A stretch of 64,000 nt of DNA from Ruegeria lacuscaerulensis (lineage in GTDB: Bacteria; Pseudomonadota; Alphaproteobacteria; Rhodobacterales; Rhodobacteraceae): the NCBI RefSeq assembly GCF_013033355.1, contig NZ_WQDY01000001.1, forward strand, positions 558,001 through 622,000, read 5' to 3'. The notes beneath the pieces were generated by a model. It saw only the letters and a list, made by a program, of their open reading frames with translations, had not been told where the DNA came from and made no database searches. A program made the translations under genes and the position numbers. Of the stretch, positions 38,157 through 62,980 are shown one piece after another. Each line of letters starts with the position of its first letter. The stretch's first letter is position 1.

Positions 38157-38409
38157 GAAAACATGACTTTCCGAATCCGGGTCTACAGTTGCAAAATGAG
38201 ATCGTTCCGTGAGTGGTGGCTTTAGCCTGGGAACATTTGGTTGGATCTTTGTAATTTCAGGGCTCTCCAACCTCTCTGGCACAGGGGCGTCTATTCGTCC
38301 ACGTACCTTTGCCGGAAACACTGGGGGGCCTCGACCATCCCCATCATGCGGGGCCCCCCAACCCTATCCTTAAATTCCAGGCGCTGCGGCGTCTTTTTTA
38401 TTGCCAAAC
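38157..38409. other. Intergenic stretch between luxR and tsf, no gene seen
   Basis: The 373-base gap between luxR and tsf has short frames only. One 20-codon frame from 38163 has a good ribosome site and ends Glu-Trp-Trp-Leu, but nothing supports its use. A GC-rich inverted repeat (38319-38361) has a long loop and no T tract. The tsf terminator lies just beyond. Confidence 0.4.
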
Positions 38410-38441
38410 GAAAAAACCGGCCACGCTATGCGTGACCGGTT
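38410..38441 (-). terminator. Terminator of the rpsB-tsf operon
   Basis: Read leftward, a 12-pair stem (AACCGGTCACGC with GCGTGGCCGGTT, one G-T pair) with a 3-base loop is followed by six T residues. It lies 44 bases past the tsf stop. Confidence 0.85.
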
Positions 38442-50989: not shown

Positions 50990-52297
50990 TCAAACAAACC
51001 TGTTCACATAGTTTTCCAGAATTTCCTGACGCCCAGATCGTGGTTCCGGGTTGATATTGTCCTGTAAAACTCGCGCAGAGATGTCCTCGAGACTACTGTT
51101 CAGCATAGACGCCGCTTCCGGAGCGTTCCAACCGGAATACCGTTCAGACAGCGCATCCTCCAGACCGCCATCTTCAATCATAGCAGCCGCGGCTTTCAAG
51201 CCTCTTGCACAGATGTCCATTCCGCCGATGTGTGCTGCAACAAGATCTTTTGCATCGAGCGACTGGCGACGTACTTTAGCGTCAAAGTTGGTGCCACCAG
51301 TTGTAAAACCTCCGGCTTTCAGAATGTAGTAATATGCCAAAGCAACCTCTGGCGTGTTGTTAGGAAATTGATCTGTGTCCCACCCTGACTGATAGTCGTT
51401 TCGGTTCATATCAATCGAACCCAGCATCCCCTCGGCAGCAGCAACTGCTATTTCATGCTCGAAACTATGGCCGGCGAGGATCGCGTGTCCCTGCTCAAGG
51501 TTCAACTTCACTTCGCTTTCCAAACCGTATTTCCTGAGGAATCCAACACAGGTCGCGGCGTCGTAGTCGTATTGGTGCTTGGACGGCTCCTGAGGTTTGG
51601 GCTCTACAAGGATGGTGCCCTTGAAGCCGATTTTGTGTTTGTACTCTACGACCATGTTCAAGAACCGGCCCATATGGTCCAGTTCAGTATTCAGGTCCGT
51701 GTTTAGCAGAGTTTCATAGCCTTCACGCCCGCCCCACAGAACATAGTTTTCGCCACCAAGCTTGTGGGTCGCATCCAAGCACGACTTTACCGTTGCTGCC
51801 GCAAAAGCAAAAACATCCGGATCGGGGTTGGTGCTCGCGCCTGACATCCATCGACGATGGCTAAACATGTTGGCGGTACCCCAAAGGAGCTTGGTGCTGG
51901 ACGTTTGCATTTTTTCACCGATGTAATCGGTGATTTCTTCCAGAGTTTTCAAGTTATCGGCAAAATTGCCCTGCTCGGGCCGAATGTCAGCGTCGTGCCA
52001 GCAGAAAAAGGGCTGACCCAGCAGCTCGAACATTTCAAAAGCAATGTCCGCCTTTAATCGGGCCCGTCCCATGTCGTCCTGAGGATGCCACGGGCGTTCG
52101 AATGTAGGTCCGCCAAAGGGGTCTCCACCCTCCCACGCGAAGGAGTGCCACCAGGCGACCGCGAACCGTAGATGGTCTTCCAGGCGTTTTCCCATGACAA
52201 CTTCGTCGGGATTGTAGTGGCGAAAGGCCATGGGGTTGTCGCTGTCTACGCCTTCAAACCGGATCTCTTCGATCCCTTCAAAAAATCCGCTTGGCAT
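50990..52297 (-). CDS. xylA: D-xylose isomerase
   Basis: A 435-residue TIM-barrel enzyme converting D-xylose to D-xylulose. Characteristic segments are Trp-His-Ser-Phe-Ala near residue 50, Phe-Cys-Trp-His-Asp-Ala-Asp-Ile near residue 98, Val-Glu-Pro-Lys-Pro-Gln-Glu-Pro (metal ligand Glu) and Asp-Met-Asn-Arg-Asn-Asp-Tyr-Gln near residue 296. Length fits the class II isomerases. It is the last gene of xylF-xylH-xylG-xylA, 9 bases after the ATPase gene. Confidence 0.95.
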
Positions 52298-52306
52298 ATC
52301 TGCCCC

Positions 52307-53113
52307 CTATTCCGCTTTTTGTTCTGGCTGCTTACCGAGAATGATCATCGACAACAAATCGTCATCTGTTACGTCTGCAATATCGACAGTCCCAACCAAT
52401 TTTCCGTTCTTCATGACCGAAGCGCGATCGCATAGCTCCATTACAGCATGCACGTCGTGATCAATCAGGAAGATGCCGATGCCTTGCGCCTTTAACTGGT
52501 GGATCAGGTCGGCCACCATTTTTGTCTCATGCGGCCCCAGCGCCGCTGTCGGCTCGTCCATAATCAGAATACGAGCGTTGAAATAGACGGCCCGGGCAAT
52601 CGCGACCGACTGTCTTTGACCACCCGACAGCGCAGAGACAGGGTCATTGAACTTCTGAAAGTTCGGATTGAGCTGCGCCATGATCTTTCGGCATTCGGCC
52701 TCCATGGCGGCATCGTTGACCAAACCCAATGGCGTCGTCATCTCGCGTCCCAGGAAAAGGTTTGATGTCGCGTCCAGATTGTCCGCCAGGGCAAGCGTCT
52801 GGTAGATGGTCTCAATATTGTTCGCGCGGGCGTCACGGGGGTTGCCAATCTCGACTGGCTTGCCATCGATCAGAATCTCGCCGTGATCCATTTGATATGC
52901 GCCGGACAGAACCTTGATCAACGTCGATTTTCCAGCCCCGTTGTGCCCAAGCAGACCGACTACTTCACCCGGATAGAGATCGACCGACACGTGGTCGACA
53001 GCCTTGATCCCACCGAACGAGATCGAAATGTCTCGCATTTCGACCAATGGCGCTGCGCCGGAGCCGCGCCCAGATTTTGAGGGTGTTTTCTGCGTGCCTT
53101 GATCTTGCATCAC
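52307..53113 (-). CDS. xylG: Xylose-type ABC transporter ATP-binding protein, single domain
   Basis: A 268-residue ABC ATPase with Walker A Gly-His-Asn-Gly-Ala-Gly-Lys-Ser, signature Leu-Ser-Gly-Gly-Gln-Arg-Gln and Walker B [10 protein letters not shown]. E. coli XylG is a fused double ATPase of about 510 residues; this one has a single domain, like FrcA-type proteins, and presumably acts as a homodimer. It overlaps the permease stop by four bases. The symbol reflects its place in the cluster. Confidence 0.86.
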
Positions 53114-54408
53114 TTGGCCCCCAATCGTTTGCGATAGACGATGTCGATATAGACGGCCAACACAAGAACGCTGCCGACCACAATATTCTGAAACGGCGCG
53201 TCCACGCCAACCATGGCCATACCAGATTGGAGCGCTTGCATGATCAATGCACCAAGGATGGCGCCGTAGATCGTCCCGATGCCACCGGACAACGCGGTAC
53301 CACCAATTACAGCGGCAGCAATAACCCGTAATTCATCCAGCGTGCCAATGTCGTTTGAATGGTTCGCGAGGCGTGCAGAAGCAACCACCGCAGAAACGGC
53401 GCATAGGAAACCCATCAGTGCAAAAATCTTCACGGTCAGCAGCCGCGTATTGATGCCGGAAAGCTCTGCCGCATCCGGGTTTCCACCGGTGGCAAAGATG
53501 TAGCGTCCAAACCGGGTTTTCCGCGCCACAATTGTCAGGGTTACGGCTACGATGATCAATATGAGGACAGAAATCGGTATACCGTATCCGACGACCAGCC
53601 CCTCTGGCATTGTCTCTCCGCGCGCTTCGAACATACGTTGCAACCGACGCGTCGGAATAGCGTAGCTGTTTACGATGTAAACGTACCCAAGGATGGCAAT
53701 TGCGATTATCCCGGCCAGAGTGGCCTCTGCCCAAACGGGTTTGACAGGAAAACCATGTGCCGCCTTTGCACGACGACTGCTCCACAAAGCCCAGATCGCG
53801 ATTGCGGTGGCGAACAAGCCGAACAGCCAGCTTGTCGTCGTGCCTAAAGTGCCGTTCGTCCCGCCAAACATCAGGAACGTACTATCCAGAGGGCCAATCG
53901 TCTGGCCGCTGGTCAAATACCACGCCACGTTTCGCCAAACCAGAAACCCGCCAAGCGTAACGATGAAGGCTGGTATCGTCAGATACCCAACCATCCAGCC
54001 ATGAAACGCACCAATCAGCGTGCCGACAAACAGCCCGACGACAATGGTGATCGCCCAGGTTGCAGGGTTGTTCAAACCCATCCCTAGTACTTGCGGCAAA
54101 AGCTCGGTTTGCGTCATTGCCATCACGGCTGACGTCGTTGCAAGCAGCGCTCCAACGGACAAGTCGATGTGTCGCGTGACAATGATGAACACCATCCCGC
54201 ACGCCATTATGGCCACCGAAACCGTCTGAATGGACAGATTGAACAGGTTCCTAGGCGTAAGGAACCGTCCATCCGTAAAGATGTTGAACCCTATGCACAG
54301 GATGACAAACGCGCCGATCATTCCCAAAAGCCGCATATCCAGTTCCAACTGCTGGAACAGGCTGGGTTTTGCTTTTTCCGGTATCGGCTGAGACGAAGTT
54401 TCGGTCAT
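53110..54408 (-). CDS. xylH: Xylose-type ABC transporter permease
   Basis: A 432-residue polytopic permease of the RbsC/XylH family, with about eleven hydrophobic segments. The permease motif [20 protein letters not shown] is near residue 360. The length matches XylH rather than the shorter ribose permeases. It follows the binding-protein gene by 60 bases. Confidence 0.87.
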
Positions 54409-54433
54409 TTCCGATCTTTCATATTCAGCAATG

Positions 54434-54460
54434 GTCCCCGGCCCAGACAGGGCCAGGGAC
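54434..54460. repeat. Hairpin between xylF and xylH
   Basis: GTCCC-C-GGCCC pairs with GGGCC-A-GGGAC (one mismatch) around five bases in the 60-base gap. It has no T tract leftward. It probably protects the xylF mRNA end, keeping binding-protein output high. Confidence 0.5.
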
Positions 54461-54468
54461 TTTGAAGT

Positions 54469-55488
54469 TTAGTTACAAGGGGCAGGTCCGTTTTCGACAC
54501 CCTGGCACAAATCCTCCAATGGGATCCATCCGGCGTCCACAACAACAGACAGGTTGTCCTTCGTGATAGGTACAGGTGCAAGGAAGACCGAGTTCATCTG
54601 GGTACCGCCAGGCGACGTCCAACTGGCCGCGCCCTCCACGTCGGCGGGACTTGTTCCCCCACTCAGCGCGACTGCGATTTCACCTGCTGCCTTACCAAGT
54701 TCGCGGGCATCCTTCCAAACGGAAACGGTCTGAGTTCCCAGCGCGACACGGTTCAATGCTGCATGATCGCCGTCCTGACCGGACACCGGGATGCCTTCCA
54801 TGCCCTGCGCAGTCAAAGCTGCCACAACGCCACCTGCAGTACCATCATTTGATGCCACGACAGCATCCACATTGTTTTCATTGGCGGTTAGGATCTGTTC
54901 CATATTTCGCTGTGCGTTCGCGGGCAACCAGCCGTCCGTGTAGGCTTCACCAACGATAACAATGTCGCCACTGTCAACGGCAGCCCCGATGATTTCTTGC
55001 TGACCACCCCTTAGAAAATCAGCGTTGGGATCAGTAGGAGAGCCCTTGATCATCACGTAATTACCCTTGGGCATGGCTTCAAAAACAGCTCGGGCCTGCA
55101 TTCTGCCGACTTCCACGTTGTCGAAGGTTAGATAGAATGCACGGTCGTCTTCAATCAGGCGGTCATAGGCAATGACCGGGATACCTTCGTCGGCCGCAGC
55201 TTGAACAGCCGGTCCGATTGCCTGCGCGTCCTGCGCCAAAATGATAAGCGCGTCCACGCCTTGCGCAATCAGACTTTCAATATCTGACAACTGCTTTGCG
55301 GAAGACGATTGCGCGTCTGCCGAAATGTACTCGGCGCCGCCTGCTTCAAGCGCGGACTTGATGGCCGCTTCGTCCGTCTTCCAGCGTTCTTCCTGAAAGT
55401 TCGACCAACTCACACCGACCACTGGCTCTGCGAATGCGGTCGAAGCCAACAGCGTGGCCACAGCAGAGAAGCTGAGAATTCTTTTCAT
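54469..55488 (-). CDS. xylF: D-xylose ABC transporter substrate-binding protein
   Basis: A 339-residue periplasmic binding protein of the ribose/xylose class. A signal peptide (about 1-20, Ala-Phe-Ala) precedes [13 protein letters not shown], the XylF-type sugar-contact start. Ala-Tyr-Asp-Arg-Leu-Ile near residue 107 and Ser-Asn-Asp-Gly-Thr-Ala-Gly near residue 213 fit the same group. It is the first gene of the leftward operon and diverges from the ROK regulator. Confidence 0.92.
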
Positions 55489-55639
55489 GTTTTCCTCCCA
55501 TTTGCCGAGCCATCGTGTTTCGATTCGCGGCTCTCACGAAATTGAATACCATATTTAATTCAGCGGGTAAAATATTTACTCTGTTAGGGCGGGCGGAATC
55601 CAAATAGACTGAGTTAAGAACCAGATTCGCGAGACCAAG
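55489..55639. promoter_or_regulatory. Divergent xylF/xylR control region
   Basis: This 151-base AT-rich spacer must hold both promoters. Two dyads are visible: TGAAT and ATTCA separated by 10 bases (55543-55562), and GTAAA and TTTAC separated by 3 bases (55567-55579). They are candidates for the ROK repressor or a sigma factor overlap. The short arms make each tentative. Confidence 0.4.
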
Positions 55640-56857
55640 ATGCTGAAAAGCAAAGCTTCTCAAAATGCCGCGGACCAGCGGAACATCACCCGACTTCGGG
55701 TGCTGGAACATATCCGGACAGAAGGCTCGATTTCACGGATCGATATCGCCAGCGCTTTGCAAACCAGCCCGGCGACAGTTACAGCAGCGACAGCCGATCT
55801 CATTTCGGCAGGATTGATCAAAGAGATCGAAACCGAACACCAATCCAAGTCTGCCAAAAGGGGGCGACCCAGAGTTTTACTTCAGTTGGATGGCGGATCT
55901 TATCTTATTGCGGGCCTTAAAGTCGCGCGCCACATGATCTCGGTCATCCTTGCAGATTTCGAAGGAAACGAGGTTACGTCATACAAATATCCGCTGGATG
56001 ACGTCCGGATGACGCCAGGCGCATTCGTAGCAACCATTCGCACGGCCTTAGATCTAGCCTGTGCACAGATCAACGCGACCCTGAACTCCCTGTCCGGAGT
56101 GTCAATCGGGATTGCCGGTCTCGTAGACGCTGAACGGAACTTTGTACACTGGTCCTCATCCCTTACCGAGAGAAACGTCGACTTCAGCCAGTTTCTGGAA
56201 ACAGAATTGCCCTGCCCTGCCTTTATAGAAAACGATGCCAACCTGGTGGCAAAGGCGGAACAACTTTTCGGGTTGGGCAAGGGTCTTAAGAATTTTTTGG
56301 TCGTGACGATCGAACACGGCGTAGGGCTTGGAATTGTGCTGGACGGCAAGCTGTATCGCGGGGAAAGAGGCTGCGGAGCAGAGTTTGGCCACACCAAAGT
56401 TCAACTGGACGGCGCGCTTTGCCAATGCGGCCAGCGAGGGTGCCTTGAAGCCTATGTCGGCGACTATGCATTGATCCGGGAAGCAACCGTTGCCGATCAA
56501 GGCACTGGAACGGAAACGGTTGCAGAGATCCACAAAAACGCGCGATCCGGAGACGAAAGAGCGAAGTCCGTTCTGACCCGCGCGGGCCAGATGTTTGGTC
56601 TGGGGATATCCAACCTGATCAACCTGTTTGACCCTGAATGCATTATCCTGTCCGGGACTCAAATGGATTTGGAGCACCTGTATTCGGACGAGGTGATGGC
56701 CCGAATCCGCAGTGGCGTCGTGAATGTCGACACCCTCTTGCCGGAAATCAAAGCGCATCACTGGGGCGATCTTATGTGGGCTAAGGGTGCTGCGGCGTAC
56801 GGGATTGAGCAGGTCTCGATCCTTAAGGTAAAAGAGTTGGCAACAAATGCGCCCTGA
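55640..56857 (+). CDS. xylR: ROK-family xylose regulator
   Basis: A 405-residue repressor. The N-terminal winged helix (about 12-70) includes Ile-Ser-Arg-Ile-Asp-Ile-Ala-Ser-Ala-Leu. The ROK sugar-kinase-like domain (about 85-395) has Val-Ser-Ile-Gly-Ile-Ala-Gly-Leu-Val and the zinc motif Cys-Gln-Cys-Gly-Gln-Arg-Gly-Cys-Leu-Glu. It probably binds xylose and releases operators in the divergent spacer and before xylB. It overlaps the next gene by 11 bases. Confidence 0.87.
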   Translation: MLKSKASQNAADQRNITRLRVLEHIRTEGSISRIDIASALQTSPATVTAATADLISAGLIKEIETEHQSKSAKRGRPRVLLQLDGGSYLIAGLKVARHMISVILADFEGNEVTSYKYPLDDVRMTPGAFVATIRTALDLACAQINATLNSLSGVSIGIAGLVDAERNFVHWSSSLTERNVDFSQFLETELPCPAFIENDANLVAKAEQLFGLGKGLKNFLVVTIEHGVGLGIVLDGKLYRGERGCGAEFGHTKVQLDGALCQCGQRGCLEAYVGDYALIREATVADQGTGTETVAEIHKNARSGDERAKSVLTRAGQMFGLGISNLINLFDPECIILSGTQMDLEHLYSDEVMARIRSGVVNVDTLLPEIKAHHWGDLMWAKGAAAYGIEQVSILKVKELATNAP

Positions 56858-58358
56858 GCTTTTTATCCTGCTCGCGTTTGCATCTGCGGCCAGTGCAGAA
56901 AGTCGCGCTCCTCAGTTCCAAAAGATTGACATAGGTTCTCATATCTATGACGGCGGCTGGGAACATTTTGTGGGCGGCGGGGTCGCCGTTTTCGATTGTG
57001 ACGGCGATGGGCTGCCCGAACTCTTTGCCGCGGGCGGCACCAACACATCCAAACTGTTCAGAAACACATCGCGTGAAGGCATATCGTTTCAAGCCGACAC
57101 CCCCGAGCCGCTTGCCATAACCGGCGTAACTGGGGCTTACCCGCTGGATATCGACAGTGATGGAATTCTGGATCTGGCCGTTTTGCGCGTGGGCCCCGAT
57201 TTGCTTTTGAAGGGTGAGCCTGATTGCAAGTTCCGCCGCTTCAGCACCCTGGGCTTCCAATCGGAGGATCATTGGACAACCGGATTCTCTGCCACATGGG
57301 AAGCCAATCAGACCCTGCCAACACTGGCCTTCGGAACTTATGTTGATCGTCGCAATCCCGACGGCCCATTTGAAACTTGCGGACCCACGGTCATATTCCG
57401 GCCAACTGGTGACAGCTACCGGCCACCGGAACACCTTGAACCAGGCTATTGCGCGCTTTCTATTCTGTTTTCTGACTGGTCGCGCACCGGGCAAGCGGAT
57501 CTGCGCGTCAGCAACGATCGCCATTACTATGTGCGCGGCGGCCAAGAGCAGTTATGGGCAATGGAGGAAACACCAAGCCTTTATTCTAAAGAAGACGGAT
57601 GGTTGCCATACTCGATCTGGGGGATGGGCATCGCTTCGCGGGATCTGACAGGAGATGGCTTTCCCGAAGTTTACCTGACTTCGATGGGCGATCAGAAGTT
57701 GCAGATTTTCGATCCCAAAGCCGGTGGTCCGACCTGGCGAGACGCCACCTTCGGCAAAGGCACGACCGCTCACAGGCCGCACACGGGAGGCGACGGCCGC
57801 CCATCGACCGGATGGCATGCACAATTTGGGGACGTCAACAACGACGGACTGGACGATATCTTCGTCGCCAAGGGAAATGTCGAGCAGATGCCAGATGCGG
57901 CTTTGGATGACCCCAACAACCTGCTTTTACAAAAGGAAAATGGTCAATTTCTAGAAGCTTCTGTCGAGGCTGGCATTGCCTCTGTGGCCAAGTCTCGCGG
58001 TGCGTCTTTGGCTGACATCAATAATGACGGTTGGCTGGATCTGGTGGTGGTTAACCGAGGCTCGGAACTTGAGGTCTACCAAAACCAGCCTAACACCGAG
58101 AATTGGGTGATGCTGGACATTTCTCAAAACAAGTCAAATCGCTTCGCGGTCGGCAGCTTTATCGAGGCCAAGACTGCGTCAGGTATGGAAACCCGAGAAA
58201 TCACAATCGGTGGAGGGCATGCAAGCGGCATTGCAGGGCTGCATCATTTTGGGCTGGGGGATGCGGAAGCAATAGAAGTTCGCGTAATTTGGCCAGATGG
58301 TGAAAAAGGAGCATGGAAGGAATATCAATCGAACCAAATCATTCGCATTGAGCGCTGA
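56847..58358 (+). CDS. Secreted FG-GAP/VCBS repeat protein with UnbV (ASPIC) C-terminal domain
   Basis: A 503-residue exported protein. A signal peptide (about 1-17, Ala-Ser-Ala) leads to beta-propeller repeats. Calcium-type Asp loops recur: Asp-Cys-Asp-Gly-Asp-Gly, Asp-Ile-Asp-Ser-Asp-Gly, Asp-Leu-Thr-Gly-Asp-Gly, Asp-Val-Asn-Asn-Asp-Gly and Asp-Ile-Asn-Asn-Asp-Gly. The last 80 residues match the ASPIC/UnbV domain (Gly-Gly-Gly-His-Ala-Ser-Gly, Val-Ile-Trp-Pro-Asp-Gly). The family is CRTAC1-like and its biochemical role is not settled. It is translationally coupled to xylR, odd for a secreted protein, and its stop abuts that of the dihaem peroxidase gene. Confidence 0.85.
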   Translation: MRPELFILLAFASAASAESRAPQFQKIDIGSHIYDGGWEHFVGGGVAVFDCDGDGLPELFAAGGTNTSKLFRNTSREGISFQADTPEPLAITGVTGAYPLDIDSDGILDLAVLRVGPDLLLKGEPDCKFRRFSTLGFQSEDHWTTGFSATWEANQTLPTLAFGTYVDRRNPDGPFETCGPTVIFRPTGDSYRPPEHLEPGYCALSILFSDWSRTGQADLRVSNDRHYYVRGGQEQLWAMEETPSLYSKEDGWLPYSIWGMGIASRDLTGDGFPEVYLTSMGDQKLQIFDPKAGGPTWRDATFGKGTTAHRPHTGGDGRPSTGWHAQFGDVNNDGLDDIFVAKGNVEQMPDAALDDPNNLLLQKENGQFLEASVEAGIASVAKSRGASLADINNDGWLDLVVVNRGSELEVYQNQPNTENWVMLDISQNKSNRFAVGSFIEAKTASGMETREITIGGGHASGIAGLHHFGLGDAEAIEVRVIWPDGEKGAWKEYQSNQIIRIER

Positions 58359-59660
58359 TCATTGATCGACTGGCAGTCCACTTGGAACATGATCCGGAAC
58401 TCCAAGGCGCTCTGCGGGATCTTCCAAGCTGCCCAAAAAGCTCAGAAGTGCGCTGATCTCCTGATCCGTCAAACTTATCCTCGGCAGATCGCTGCTTCTG
58501 GCAATCGCATCCAAATTCTCTGGGTTCAACAATGACCGTTGATCCTGCGCACCAGGAAAATAAGGTAGTTTCGCCATTTCCAACGTGTACGACCGCAGTG
58601 AAGCCTCTGGGTTGAGATGATGGCGCACGATATCTTCAAGCCGTGCATAGGCGCCGTTGTGCCCATATGGTGCCGTCAGCGTTACATTGCGCAACGAGGG
58701 CGTGCGAAACGCAAACGCGTCCTCTGCGTCACCAGTCACGCGCAGGCGTCCATCATCTCGGGTATGGCTTTCAAATCGCGCTGCTTTTCCCGGTCCGATC
58801 TGCGGCAGCGCAATCGAGTGAAATTTATGGTCTGTTTGGAACCAGCCCGAATGACAGGTACTGCACCCTGCTTTCCCGTAAAACAACTGCATGCCGCGCT
58901 GTGCCTCTTCTGGCAATGCTGCTTCTCCCCGCATCGCAAGGTCAAACGGGCTGTTGTCGGCGCGCCATTCGAACGCAATGAAATCTGCAATTACATTCGC
59001 AATAGCCGAGAACGTTATCGCGTCCCCAGGAGCGGTTAAAGAAAAACGGTGTTCATATTCTGGGATGGCCGCGACGCGAGCTGCAATCAGATCCCACGCC
59101 CCCCCTTCCTGAGTAAGCATCCCTAGACGTACAGCCTGACTGACATCATTCTCGGAATAGTGGCCTGCCATCTCATCGGGCGAAAGCACTGGAAACATTG
59201 CCTGAGCTGCCAAAGCTGAATTGAAACCTGACCGCATGTGCGTGCCCAGCGGCGTCCTGATACCGTTCTCGCGCGTCGGATCAGTTTCAAGGCGCCCGTC
59301 ATGAAAGAAGGTTGTGAATTCGGTTGCACCAAGGTTCCAAAGCCCCGGCGAATTGCGCGGAATGCGTTGCTCCGGCGGGTTGTCCGTGTCAATTTTGCGC
59401 CCTGCCCCCAAACCCGAACCCCCTTCTCCGATCCCAAGCGAGAGCCCATCTGACGTGCCAAGCTTGGGGTGGTGACAAGTTGCGCAGCTGATGTTCCTGT
59501 TTCCGGATAAGATCGGGTCATAGAAAAGCAGCCGTCCAAGTTGGACATTAGCCAGGTCAGATTCAACAAATTCTGGGTTCGGACCGAGGTTCTGAGACGT
59601 TGCGGTCGTGATGGACGCATTCACCACGCCGAAAGCAATAATCGGTGCAGCAAACCTCAT
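58359..59660 (-). CDS. Dihaem cytochrome c peroxidase/MauG family protein
   Basis: A 433-residue periplasmic dihaem protein. A signal peptide (about 1-23) is followed by two haem c sites, Cys59-Ala-Thr-Cys62-His63 and Cys266-Ser-Thr-Cys269-His270. A Tyr-Gly-His-Asn-Gly segment near residue 345 is typical of the group. The family includes peroxidases and MauG, which oxidises protein residues. No mau genes are near, so MauG activity is only one option. The start overlaps the epimerase stop by four bases, placing it in the xylB operon. Confidence 0.87.
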   Translation of the reverse strand: MRFAAPIIAFGVVNASITTATSQNLGPNPEFVESDLANVQLGRLLFYDPILSGNRNISCATCHHPKLGTSDGLSLGIGEGGSGLGAGRKIDTDNPPEQRIPRNSPGLWNLGATEFTTFFHDGRLETDPTRENGIRTPLGTHMRSGFNSALAAQAMFPVLSPDEMAGHYSENDVSQAVRLGMLTQEGGAWDLIAARVAAIPEYEHRFSLTAPGDAITFSAIANVIADFIAFEWRADNSPFDLAMRGEAALPEEAQRGMQLFYGKAGCSTCHSGWFQTDHKFHSIALPQIGPGKAARFESHTRDDGRLRVTGDAEDAFAFRTPSLRNVTLTAPYGHNGAYARLEDIVRHHLNPEASLRSYTLEMAKLPYFPGAQDQRSLLNPENLDAIARSSDLPRISLTDQEISALLSFLGSLEDPAERLGVPDHVPSGLPVDQ

Positions 59661-60610
59661 GTGCCACCCTCGGAAATTTCCAAAATCAAGGTCTGCTCGT
59701 AAGGGGTTTCAGGCGCGTAAATGATCGACGGGAATTCGGGGATGTTAGGCGCATTGGGATAACCTGACGGCTCGATGCACACACCGGCGCTTTTGTGAAA
59801 GGGTTTCTTCAGGTGAGCGCCAGAGTAAATCTGCGCCCCTGCCTGGTCTGACCAGACAGACAACTTCAAACCGTTAGGTGCAGTAAGGTCAGCGACCGGA
59901 AACTCATTATCTCGTGTGCAGTCAAAGACGAAATAGTTGTCCAAGTCCGTCAAAGCGGCACCGATCGCTTTCGGCACAGTGAATTGCATCTCACCCTCAC
60001 TTGCATCCTCAAATTTGCCAGAGGGGATTCCGCGATTGTCAACTTGAAGATAGCGGCTTGAGGTCAGCCGCAGACAATGCTCGGCAATGCCCGCCGCTCC
60101 ACCCAGGCAGTAGTAGTTGTGCTGCGCTATACTTATGGGTGTCGGCCGATCCGGTTGCGCCGAAATGGAATAGGTCAAACGCGGGTAGTCCAGCCTTACC
60201 CGCACTTCAAATTTGATTTCTCCAGGAAACCCGCCGGAACCCTCTGGGGAAGTGAGGCGCAATATGGCCTCGTTTACTGTTATCCTCTCTAGAGCCCAAT
60301 TCTGATGCGATAGCCCTGCGCGCCCACCATGCAAAGAATTTTGACCGTCGTTCGCGTCAAGCTCATAACGAACGTTTCCCATGTCAAAATGCGCTTGTCC
60401 GATCCGATTGGCGACACGCCCGACGATTGCGCCCAGATAATTTTTGTCGGCGACATAGTCCTGCGGGTTCTCGTATCCAAGGATCATTGGCAAACCCTTG
60501 TACCACCAGCTTTGAGTTATGGCTCCGTAGCTGAGCAGCGACACTCGCATATCGCCATCACTCAGAACGACCCTGTCGATCTGCGGAGATATGTCCCGTC
60601 TTGTGTTCAT
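59657..60610 (-). CDS. Aldose 1-epimerase (mutarotase)
   Basis: A 317-residue GalM-family protein that interconverts alpha and beta anomers of aldoses. It has Gly-Arg-Val-Ala-Asn-Arg-Ile near residue 64 and Asn-Ser-Leu-His-Gly-Gly near residue 92. Ala-Gln-His-Asn-Tyr-Tyr near residue 165 carries the catalytic His, and Cys-Ile-Glu-Pro-Ser-Gly-Tyr-Pro-Asn-Ala-Pro near the end carries the Glu. The ATG at 60610 overlaps the xylB stop by four bases; a much longer frame upstream is not used. It likely serves xylose isomerase, which takes one anomer. Confidence 0.88.
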   Translation of the reverse strand: MNTRRDISPQIDRVVLSDGDMRVSLLSYGAITQSWWYKGLPMILGYENPQDYVADKNYLGAIVGRVANRIGQAHFDMGNVRYELDANDGQNSLHGGRAGLSHQNWALERITVNEAILRLTSPEGSGGFPGEIKFEVRVRLDYPRLTYSISAQPDRPTPISIAQHNYYCLGGAAGIAEHCLRLTSSRYLQVDNRGIPSGKFEDASEGEMQFTVPKAIGAALTDLDNYFVFDCTRDNEFPVADLTAPNGLKLSVWSDQAGAQIYSGAHLKKPFHKSAGVCIEPSGYPNAPNIPEFPSIIYAPETPYEQTLILEISEGGT

Positions 60611-62064
60611 CGTTTGGCAAAAGGTGCTAAAGCCGAATAATATTGCCGGTAGCGTTGGTACTCGGTTTCGAAAGCATCGACCAAGTCCTGACGAGGTTCG
60701 ATGACCCTGTCGATTTTGGGAGACGTCATTATAGTGCCCGGGGGTGCGCCAGTGACCGAGCACATTGCCAGACGGGCGGCGCCGATGGCGGCTCCGAACT
60801 CACTGCCCTGCGGCAAGGCTAGGGGCGTATTGAGCACAGTGGCCAGACTTTTCAACCAATAATGAGATCGCGCACCGCCGCCAACGGCCAAAAGGCTCGT
60901 TGGTTTTGTTCCGGTACTCTTGAGGGCCTCTAGACAGTCCCGCATTGCAAACGCGACGCCTTCCATGACTGCCCGCGTCAAATCGGTGGCCTCCGAGGAA
61001 ATATCCACACCCAGAAACGCACCACGGATTGTACTGTCATTGTGCGGCGTCCGCTCACCTGAAAGATAAGGCAGAAACGTGATCTCTGATGGGCCATCCA
61101 GATCAGCAGGCAGCGCAGCGACCAAGTCACCAACGGACTGGCCAAGGTTGCGAGAGAGCCAGTTCAAACTATTTGTCGCAGACAGGATAACACCCATCTG
61201 AATCCACCTGTCAGGGACAGAATGGCAAAAACAGTGTACAGCTGTTTCTGGCGCTGGAGCATACTTGTCCCTGGACACCAGCAGCACACCCGAGGTTCCG
61301 AGAGACAAAAAGCCAGTTCCGTCGCTGATACTGCCTATCCCACAGGCAGCAGCGGCATTGTCCCCTGCTCCGCCAGCAATCACGACTTGTCCAGACACCC
61401 CCCATTCTTGCCGCAACTCGGACCGCAACTCTCCGCCCGGATCACTGCCTTCGACCAATCGGGGCATTTGTTCGATGTTCATGTGGCTTTGTTCCAGGGC
61501 AGTTTCCGACCATCGCCGTGCACCTACGTCCAGCCATGAAGTCCCCGCACTGTCAGACATGTCACTGACGTAATCTCCTGTCAGCCAGAGCCGCAAGTAG
61601 TCTTTCGGTAGCAGAACTTTGGCAATTTTGACGAACAGGTCAGGTTCATTTGCACGAATCCATTCCAACTTGGGCGCCGTAAAACCCGGAAAAACGATAT
61701 TGCCTGAACTGGCACGCATACCGGGTGATTGATCAAGAATCTCTGCTTCTCTCGAAGCCCTTGTGTCGTTCCAAAGAATGCACGGCCGCAACACGTTGCC
61801 ATTGGCATCCAGAAGGGTCGCACCATGCATGTGTCCGCTCAAACCAATGCCACGCAGCGCGGAAAACGACGTTCCGTGTGCTTCACGAAGCTGAAGGACA
61901 ACTTCTTTGCAAGCCTCTATCCAGTCCGAGGGCGACTGTTCGGACCAACCAGGCTTTGGGCAAGACGTGAGAATTCTAGACTCGGCACTACCTTCAACGA
62001 TACCCGCGTCGTTGACAAGAATTCCCCTAAGACCGGATGTTCCCAAGTCCAGACCGAGATACAT
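60607..62064 (-). CDS. xylB: Xylulokinase
   Basis: A 485-residue FGGY carbohydrate kinase that phosphorylates D-xylulose. Key segments are Gly-Leu-Asp-Leu-Gly-Thr-Ser-Gly near the start, Gly-Leu-Ser-Gly-His-Met-His-Gly near residue 77, and Tyr-Leu-Ser-Gly-Glu-Arg-Thr-Pro-His near residue 330. The ATG at 62064 begins the kinase domain; the ATG at 62079 is five codons earlier and lies only 5 bases from an operator-like palindrome. It heads the xylB-epimerase-peroxidase operon. Confidence 0.92.
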   Translation of the reverse strand: MYLGLDLGTSGLRGILVNDAGIVEGSAESRILTSCPKPGWSEQSPSDWIEACKEVVLQLREAHGTSFSALRGIGLSGHMHGATLLDANGNVLRPCILWNDTRASREAEILDQSPGMRASSGNIVFPGFTAPKLEWIRANEPDLFVKIAKVLLPKDYLRLWLTGDYVSDMSDSAGTSWLDVGARRWSETALEQSHMNIEQMPRLVEGSDPGGELRSELRQEWGVSGQVVIAGGAGDNAAAACGIGSISDGTGFLSLGTSGVLLVSRDKYAPAPETAVHCFCHSVPDRWIQMGVILSATNSLNWLSRNLGQSVGDLVAALPADLDGPSEITFLPYLSGERTPHNDSTIRGAFLGVDISSEATDLTRAVMEGVAFAMRDCLEALKSTGTKPTSLLAVGGGARSHYWLKSLATVLNTPLALPQGSEFGAAIGAARLAMCSVTGAPPGTIMTSPKIDRVIEPRQDLVDAFETEYQRYRQYYSALAPFAKR

Positions 62065-62084
62065 TTTCAAACCACCCATATTTT

Positions 62085-62101
62085 ATTTTAGTTACTAAAA
62101 T
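62085..62101. promoter_or_regulatory. Operator-like palindrome before xylB
   Basis: ATTTTAGT and ACTAAAAT flank a single T, 20 bases before the xylB start, a position suited to a repressor. Firmicute ROK XylR sites also contain TTAG and CTAA half-sites, so this is a good candidate for the xylose regulator. Confidence 0.55.
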
Positions 62102-62282
62102 TATTTTACGGAAAGATATTGTCAATAAAAGTTTCAAGCAATTTGGTTTCCAGTGCGTTAAACCTTCGCCACTACGGACTTTAGAACATAGCGTGACGCA
62201 GTTTCCTGAGCCCAACCTGCCTATGTTACCGCCACTAATACCGTTTTTTTGATGCAAGAACGTCTGATTTGATTTCGAAAAG

Positions 62283-62521: not shown

Positions 62522-62980
62522 ATGTCACGTACTCTTGTTCTCGGCGTTCTCGTCGCTGGTATTGGTGCCGGTATTTACTATTATCTCACACAACCCGAGC
62601 CCACGCCGGCCGAACAGTTGCAATCCGCGGCTCAGGACGCAGGTGATGCGGTCAGCGACGCTGTTGAATCCGTTGCAGAACAGGCTGCAAACGCGTCCGA
62701 CCAGGTCGAGCAATCCGCGACCGACTTGGCAAATCAGGCGTCCGAAGATGTCGCCGCCTTGGCCAGTCAAGGTCAGGATCTTTTGAACAGCTGGATCGAG
62801 GACGGCACGTTGGCCGTTCAGAACTTTGACTATGACAAAATGGTCGCATCGGTGAAGGACAGCGCACTGACCAATGATCTGAAAACTCGCGCGATAGCCA
62901 TTCTGGATGAAATCAAGGCTTCTCCCGAAGTGTTTGCCGCCAAGCTCGAGGAACTGAGGGCACTTCTTACCCAACAGTGA
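62522..62980 (+). CDS. Membrane-anchored helical protein, unknown function
   Basis: A 152-residue protein. Residues 4-22 form one membrane segment (rich in Val, Gly and Ile, then Tyr-Tyr-Tyr). A long Ala/Asp/Glu/Gln-rich stretch (about 30-85) looks coiled-coil or disordered, and the end is a short amphipathic region. The ATG has a clear AGGAG site upstream. I do not recognise the family; similar Ala-rich anchored proteins are common in Rhodobacterales. It lies just outside the tRNA remnant. Confidence 0.7.
   Translation: MSRTLVLGVLVAGIGAGIYYYLTQPEPTPAEQLQSAAQDAGDAVSDAVESVAEQAANASDQVEQSATDLANQASEDVAALASQGQDLLNSWIEDGTLAVQNFDYDKMVASVKDSALTNDLKTRAIAILDEIKASPEVFAAKLEELRALLTQQ

Follow-up and report, generated by a model that had tools for sequence, protein, structure and literature searches.

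What are an exported propeller protein and a dihaem peroxidase-like protein doing in the middle of a bacterial xylose locus? The question is raised by a 64,000-nucleotide stretch of Ruegeria lacuscaerulensis DNA (contig NZ_WQDY01000001.1, positions 558,001 to 622,000; the window in what follows), whose xylose locus at 50990-62079 holds these two genes:

56847..58358, plus strand: CRTAC1-type propeller (FG-GAP repeats and a UnbV/ASPIC cap), 503 amino acids, ATG start, from open reading frame (ORF), Pfam and model
58359..59660, minus strand: dihaem CCP_MauG-family peroxidase-like protein (hereafter the CCP), 433 amino acids, ATG start, two CxxCH motifs, from ORF and Pfam

The xylose pathway is usually described without such a propeller, and we know of no function assigned to bacterial CRTAC1-type proteins. 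Here we report that the propeller accompanies the xylose-binding protein XylF across the family Rhodobacteraceae, marine bacteria of the Roseobacter type included, and that its peroxidase partner has been exchanged among three types. The finding provides a bacterial CRTAC1-type protein with a partner and with a sugar context, in hosts that are amenable to genetics.

Conservation of the pair at xylose loci

The main sample comprised 394 genomes of the family, about one per genus, with E-value cut-offs of 1e-10 for the propeller (213 genomes), 1e-80 for the CCP (226) and 1e-60 for XylF (205). Seventeen weak propeller rows were excluded from the two-by-two counts, leaving 196 propeller genomes, Ruegeria and Phaeobacter relatives among them. 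A cut of 1e-130 defined the close CCPs; it was chosen after viewing the E-values, which have no sharp gap, and 68 genomes with a weaker CCP (7 with XylF, 8 with the propeller) were counted as being without this CCP. The propeller tracked XylF closely, with 191 genomes holding both, 5 the propeller only, 14 XylF only and 184 neither (Fisher 2e-87, uncorrected for relatedness). Seen from the 158 close-CCP genomes, 154 had the propeller and 153 XylF; seen from the 205 XylF genomes, the propeller was present in 191 and the CCP in 153. The CCP lay on another contig than the propeller in some genomes (G317, G137, G241). In four of the five XylF-less propeller genomes (G027, G202, G259, G319) the propeller gene lies at a contig end or close to one, in G259 with xylA and xylB and in G027 with a piece of xylF alongside; in the fifth, G042, the neighbour of xylB is a 34% propeller. 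The window genome has a single propeller match, located in the window.

Gene order was read in 100 loci of other family genomes, hand-picked among the matches listed (to about 2e-151) with most contig-end rows skipped, so that weak matches are under-represented. XylF was present at 87 of these loci, the ROK regulator at 84, the CCP at 76, XylB at 72, XylA at 69 and the epimerase at 31, and XylF and the CCP occurred together at 73. The CCP was convergent and downstream in 74 of its 76 loci, 70 of these with a gap below 250 bases, and the ROK and propeller ORFs overlapped in 68 of 70 measured loci, a count that uses the first possible start and overstates overlaps. Among the 80 best named loci, which are the closest matches to the window and biased to its own type, XylF was found in 80, ROK in 77, the CCP in 76 and a haloperoxidase in none. 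A similar gene order is annotated on Phaeobacter inhibens pPGA2_239 and in Roseinatronobacter, and annotated plasmid records name the propeller orthologues 'CRTAC1 family protein'; the closest named relative of the window propeller is from Ruegeria sp. THAF57, at 84%. Phaeobacter accounts for 59 of the 74 propeller-matching plasmid records, the listed full-length matches lying on replicons of about 205-291 kb.

Chance adjacency of propeller and CCP was rejected by the 100-locus, 394-genome and 80-locus counts. An earlier note on this DNA had seen the two genes as wired into the xylose operons, had proposed a search for co-occurrence across genomes, and had named the lack of a conserved neighbourhood as what would speak against it; the search finds the arrangement kept across family genomes and the propeller tracking XylF, and the claim stands. 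A search of an open-access library, which leaves out most subscription papers, found no description of the pair; this is consistent with the note's suggestion of an undescribed periplasmic step.

Exchange of the peroxidase partner

Loci that lack the CCP proved informative. In 13 of the 24 CCP-less loci a vanadium-haloperoxidase-like gene ends at the propeller start, an arrangement found in none of the 76 CCP loci. At a cut-off of 1e-40 this haloperoxidase-like partner occurs in 30 of the 394 genomes, all 30 with XylF. The two partners are mutually exclusive: the 196 propeller genomes divide into 154 with the CCP, 28 with the haloperoxidase, none with both and 14 with neither (Fisher 8e-24). 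Two of the haloperoxidase-like proteins have a PAP2 match in Pfam (5.9e-12 and 4.4e-9), and one of them, searched against 4cit, which we take to be the Zobellia vanadium-dependent haloperoxidase, matched at 2.8e-67. K-x6-RP, PSGH and SRxxxGxH, seen by eye in the partner, are presumably the vanadate-binding motifs.

DHOR (PF06537, a dihaem 'putative peroxidase') was sought within the family in the 14 genomes without CCP or haloperoxidase; its gene was found directly upstream of the propeller in three of them, lying in the xyl locus between the ROK and propeller genes. One of the three partners is present in 185 of the 196 propeller genomes, and all three types are found inside xylose loci. This exchangeability of the partner among three peroxidase types is new here. 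In a tree of 114 propellers, built by a quick method, the haloperoxidase group forms one side of a branch (value 98), and the 77 CCP rows together with 11 unlinked rows form one side of another (value 100). Because the partner groups form sides of the tree, and because the DHOR distribution needs three changes on it, partner exchanges were few, and each of the new partners is related to a peroxidase or carries that annotation.

The natural exchange amounts to a ready-made experiment, from which follow the property required by the propeller and a prediction of its docking face. Twelve propeller positions separate the CCP-linked from the haloperoxidase-linked rows (41, 148, 166, 171, 173, 175, 179, 200, 226, 229, 281 and 283). 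With faces assigned from the strands (DSSP) of an AlphaFold2 model (predicted local distance difference test, pLDDT, 89.7) and from the positions of the FG-GAP calcium motifs, seven of the twelve fall in B-C loops (p 2e-4), nine in B-C or D-A loops (p 0.005) and none in the calcium A-B loops, the loop classes having been defined after the positions were seen.

Beyond the family, the wider class yielded the propeller in 14 of 385 genomes, nine of them outside Rhodobacteraceae. A DHOR gene overlaps or touches the propeller start in three of these nine, at xyl loci in L232 and L238, not in L236. In L234 and L240 (a 4.3-kb contig) the propeller lies with xyl genes and no peroxidase is visible; in L233, L235 and L237 it adjoins Liv-type ABC (ATP-binding cassette) transporter genes, named by eye; and L239 has neither xyl genes nor a Liv-type transporter nor DHOR. 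Four plasmids from other phyla that were viewed carry CRTAC1- or VCBS-type genes near glycoside hydrolase or TonB/SusD genes. One of the plasmids viewed, from Hymenobacter (L256, NZ_CP095063.1), carries a vanadium haloperoxidase gene in the same row as TonB, SusD and VCBS-repeat genes.

Layout of the locus and operator-like sites

The remaining features of the locus are as follows:

50990..52297, minus strand: xylA, xylose isomerase (NCBIfam TIGR02630, 665 bits, cut-off 533)
52307..53113, minus strand: xylG-type ATPase, 268 amino acids, one ABC domain (ORF and Pfam)
53110..54408, minus strand: xylH-type permease (ORF and Pfam)
54469..55488, minus strand: xylF, periplasmic sugar-binding protein (NCBIfam TIGR02634, 472 bits, cut-off 390)
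55555..55574, no strand: operator-like palindrome in the xylF/xylR promoter region (15.0 bits; region in the training set)
55640..56857, plus strand: ROK-family regulator, xylR-like, preceding the propeller (ORF and Pfam)
59657..60763, minus strand: aldose 1-epimerase (ORF and Pfam)
60607..62079, minus strand: xylB, xylulokinase, first gene of the row ending in the CCP (TIGR01312, 529 bits, cut-off 380)
62084..62103, no strand: operator-like palindrome upstream of xylB-epimerase-CCP (20.0 bits; held out; best in the window)

The propeller ORF, starting at 56847, overlaps the end of the ROK/xylR ORF at 56857 by 11 bases. On the minus strand the row reads xylB, epimerase, CCP; the end of the epimerase ORF at 59657 overlaps the CCP start by the four bases ATGA, and the 3' ends of propeller and CCP abut (58358/58359). 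These ORF coordinates confirm both overlaps and the adjacent 3' ends that the earlier note had described, and the signal-like N-termini of propeller and CCP, seen by eye, agree with its view that both proteins are exported. For the epimerase, ATG 60610 is the probable start, judged by eye, in which case the xylB stop would also be overlapped by ATGA. The xylG-type ATPase has 268 residues, where the named XylG models have about 500, and a 152-residue ORF beside the xylB promoter (62522-62980) has no Pfam match.

A 20-base palindrome (motif 0), learned from 72 xylF/xylR intergenic regions, occurs before both gene rows. Its second-best match in the window, 16.5 bits at 38397-38416, lies away from the locus. 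For another motif (motif 4) the two best window matches are at 55553 and 62081, the next scoring 10.9. In related genomes the palindrome reaches at least 10 bits in 26 of 32 xylB...CCP rows (21 of 32 when an alternative version of the motif is used), compared with 12% of 167 other intergenic stretches and 0% of shuffles. The operator-like palindrome supports a putative shared regulation of both rows and, at the level of sequence, the co-regulation with xyl genes whose lack the earlier note would have counted as a refutation. As to what the transporter carries, the available part of PMC10130141 assigns both glucose and xylose uptake to R. pomeroyi XylFGH (SPO0861-0863) by an arrayed mutant; there, a pooled library missed the xylose transporter and the arrayed mutants found it.

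A working model

We infer that the propeller and its peroxidase touch, and that peroxide is used. The explanation that we rank first, with about an even chance of being right, is a propeller-docked peroxidase that runs a peroxide-consuming reaction beside aldose uptake. Propeller and peroxidase would together form one periplasmic two-protein unit of the aldose (xylose/glucose) uptake regulon, in which the propeller would be the constant part and the peroxidase would dock on one propeller rim. With hydrogen peroxide as its oxidant, the peroxidase would act on a target that is either displayed by the propeller or produced there; this target may be a molecule derived from sugar or the propeller itself. 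As peroxidases of three types can take this place, the property needed is most likely peroxide consumption and not a MauG-specific reaction. A bolder form of this model, which we put forward tentatively and regard as possible yet doubtful, is a peroxide-driven periplasmic aldose machine with a propeller core, an oxidising module swapped between haem (CCP, DHOR) and vanadium, and a docking rim rewritten at each exchange. If true, this would add a new kind of oxidoreductase, sugar-linked and built of two components, and the propeller-peroxidase association would extend to the relatives of hydrazine synthase.

Several observations weigh against the docked-peroxidase model. In eleven of the 196 propeller genomes none of the three partners is found at the cut-offs used, and in nine of these eleven loci the propeller stands with xyl genes and no visible peroxidase; three of the eleven have the propeller at a contig end, two are otherwise incomplete and six are without such an excuse, and somewhere in five of the genomes there is a CCP match of lesser strength (1e-100 to 1e-118). 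Ruegeria sp. TM1040 carries xylGHF-ROK-CRTAC1 on its megaplasmid, where no peroxidase neighbours the propeller (the chromosome was not searched). XylF lies outside the 19-kb stretch in 10 of the 13 haloperoxidase loci. The palindrome is found in 45% of all 66 delimited CCP rows and in 2 of 18 rows with the CCP alone, the limits of these 18 being unreliable through overlong ORFs. The Fisher values overstate independence, the genera being related; the loop classes were post hoc, and clade history alone could yield some of the 12 position differences. Finally, a CRTAC1-CCP pair lies off the xyl genes on the Rhodobacteraceae plasmid pSC52_1 (L258, CP049029.1 245228-260649), with an Fe-alcohol dehydrogenase, an aldehyde dehydrogenase, a glutamine synthetase and a TRAP transporter as neighbours. 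A xylose-only device was set aside on account of this plasmid pair; of the link to pentose uptake suggested in the earlier note, the presence of the pair at xylose loci stands, and a strict restriction to xylose does not.

Fold of the propeller

The propeller matches FG-GAP_3 (6.9e-26) and UnbV_ASPIC (6e-12) in Pfam, both above the curated cut-offs, and the best fold match of its model is mouse CRTAC1 (9etn; Z 38.5, root-mean-square deviation 2.7, 442 residues aligned). Next come the LGI1 propeller and the sugar-active aldos-2-ulose dehydratase, both at about 29 (for the dehydratase, Z 29.2, deviation 4.0, 367 aligned), and ordinary propellers score Z 24-26. The presence of a sugar-active enzyme next to CRTAC1 and level with LGI1 fits an alternative that we consider unlikely, though the strongest of the competitors: the propeller would itself be an enzyme acting on sugar, its product being hydrogen peroxide or an oxidised sugar that is toxic, and the peroxidase would be the sink for that product. 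That three different peroxidase types serve is as expected of a sink, and the linkage of the propeller to an aldose transporter, and its persistence at xyl genes in the nine loci without a visible peroxidase, agree as well. Against it, an oxidase with this fold is not known to us, no cofactor site was identified in the propeller, and the 11 partnerless genomes would, at the cut-offs used, have no sink.

Likely chemistry of the CCP

The CCP matches CCP_MauG (PF03150) at 2.3e-34, above the curated cut-off, and has its CxxCH motifs at 59 and 266. Its model (pLDDT 84.0) finds MbnH (6e1c), bCcp and MauG in a tie (Z 26.0 to 25.1), MbnH being best by profile. It falls below the cut-offs of the more specific models, scoring 123 bits against 444 for MauG (TIGR03791), 120 against 363 for MbnH (TIGR04039) and 271 against 340 for the His-Xaa-Ser MauG-like model TIGR03981, its best-scoring NCBIfam model. 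No His-Xaa-Ser genes were seen among the neighbours named in the Pfam and NCBIfam scans, which included no model search aimed at them, and the neighbours are xyl genes, not a mau cluster. A 47% identical CCP paralogue elsewhere in the window genome (G000 C35:207329-208600), its 4.3-kb surroundings viewed by eye as an ORF list, was set aside; the one propeller match of this genome is that of the window.

Gln153 and Glu163, which we take to be the peroxide-cleaving pair, are invariant in 77 of 77 CCPs. The equivalent of the Glu is named for BthA in the accessible text of PMC6405878. Position 79, aligned to the GHG His of 4aal and 2c1u, is Glu or Asp in all 77, and the classical switch-loop His (SIGHG) is missing; His120 stands at the inter-haem Trp position in 72 of 77, by a weak local alignment to 2c1u. 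By alignment, His348 takes the second-haem ligand position in 76 of 77 and the classical CcP Met is absent; CCP 214-348 aligns to 149-294 of 3l4m, which sets a His, at the end point of the aligned range, against the MauG Tyr ligand 294. As far as the available part of PMC6405878 goes, Tyr-to-His replacement of this ligand abolishes the bis-Fe(IV) feature in MauG and BthA, and BthA so altered retains peroxide reduction. Because the Gln/Glu pair is kept, a His aligns with the ligand position and altered BthA behaves in this way, in our reading the CCP is more likely to reduce peroxide than to oxidise proteins as MauG does.

These residues bear on a second alternative, to which we give somewhat less credence than to the sink, namely a MauG/MbnH-type maturation in which the CCP oxidises propeller Trp or Tyr residues into a cofactor or cross-link. 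The family and fold of the CCP fit it, and candidate targets exist: propeller Trp143, 252, 258 and 323 and Tyr165 and 227 are invariant in 14 of 14 rows and at least 96% conserved in a second alignment. The same aromatics, however, are invariant alike in the rows with a CCP (8) and with a haloperoxidase (6); the CCP has, by alignment, at MauG residue 294 the His that stops bis-Fe(IV) formation in MauG and BthA (PMC6405878, in the part available); it has no inter-haem Trp, though BthA likewise has none; and the replacement partner is of the haloperoxidase family. The earlier note had suggested the propeller as a substrate for residue oxidation; in the manner of MauG this idea is weakened by His348, His120 and a partner of a non-haem family.

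In a third alternative, which we think improbable, the peroxidase would guard the periplasm, or attack halides or the phenolics of algae, at times of abundant sugar, and the propeller would be no more than an anchor or adhesin. Many of these bacteria live on algae, and the replacement partner is related to 4cit; yet the best-kept companion of XylF is the propeller (191 of 205) and not the peroxidase (153 for the CCP). An inherited neighbourhood without functional tie is very improbable: vertical inheritance can preserve gene order, but the sets persist unlinked (10 of 13 haloperoxidase loci without XylF nearby, 30 of 30 haloperoxidase genomes with it), and CCP and haloperoxidase never occur together in the 196 propeller genomes.

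Comparison with known systems

The window propeller shares its domains and fold with CRTAC1 and the ASPIC-UnbV FG-GAP propellers; the solved relative is a mouse protein, whereas this one is bacterial, lies in a sugar locus and has a peroxidase partner. Hydrazine synthase likewise combines a seven-bladed propeller with a CCP-like dihaem protein (PMC12758564, in the part available, as for the further points from it). Among its non-anammox homologues, that text places a CRTAC1-family gene among the genes of clades I-II and substrate-binding protein genes near clade III. According to the same source, hydrazine synthase gamma has, like the window CCP, a His at the CCP/MauG Trp position, together with a bis-His second haem, whereas the non-anammox homologues have Trp there. 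The fold likeness of the window CCP to hydrazine synthase gamma is weaker (Z 13.4, deviation 4.0, 228 aligned). The replacement partner is clearly related to the haloperoxidase 4cit and, unlike it, is paired with a propeller in XylF genomes; it is a putative haloperoxidase. MbnH acts with MbnP as its partner. BthA with its phosphatase neighbour (PMC6405878, in the part available) and MauG with preMADH also join a dihaem CCP_MauG protein to a dedicated exported neighbour or substrate, as here. The window CCP differs from MauG, MbnH and BthA in that its partner is a CRTAC1 propeller, in the His at the MauG Tyr ligand position, and in that the dihaem enzyme is replaceable by a haloperoxidase-like or DHOR protein.

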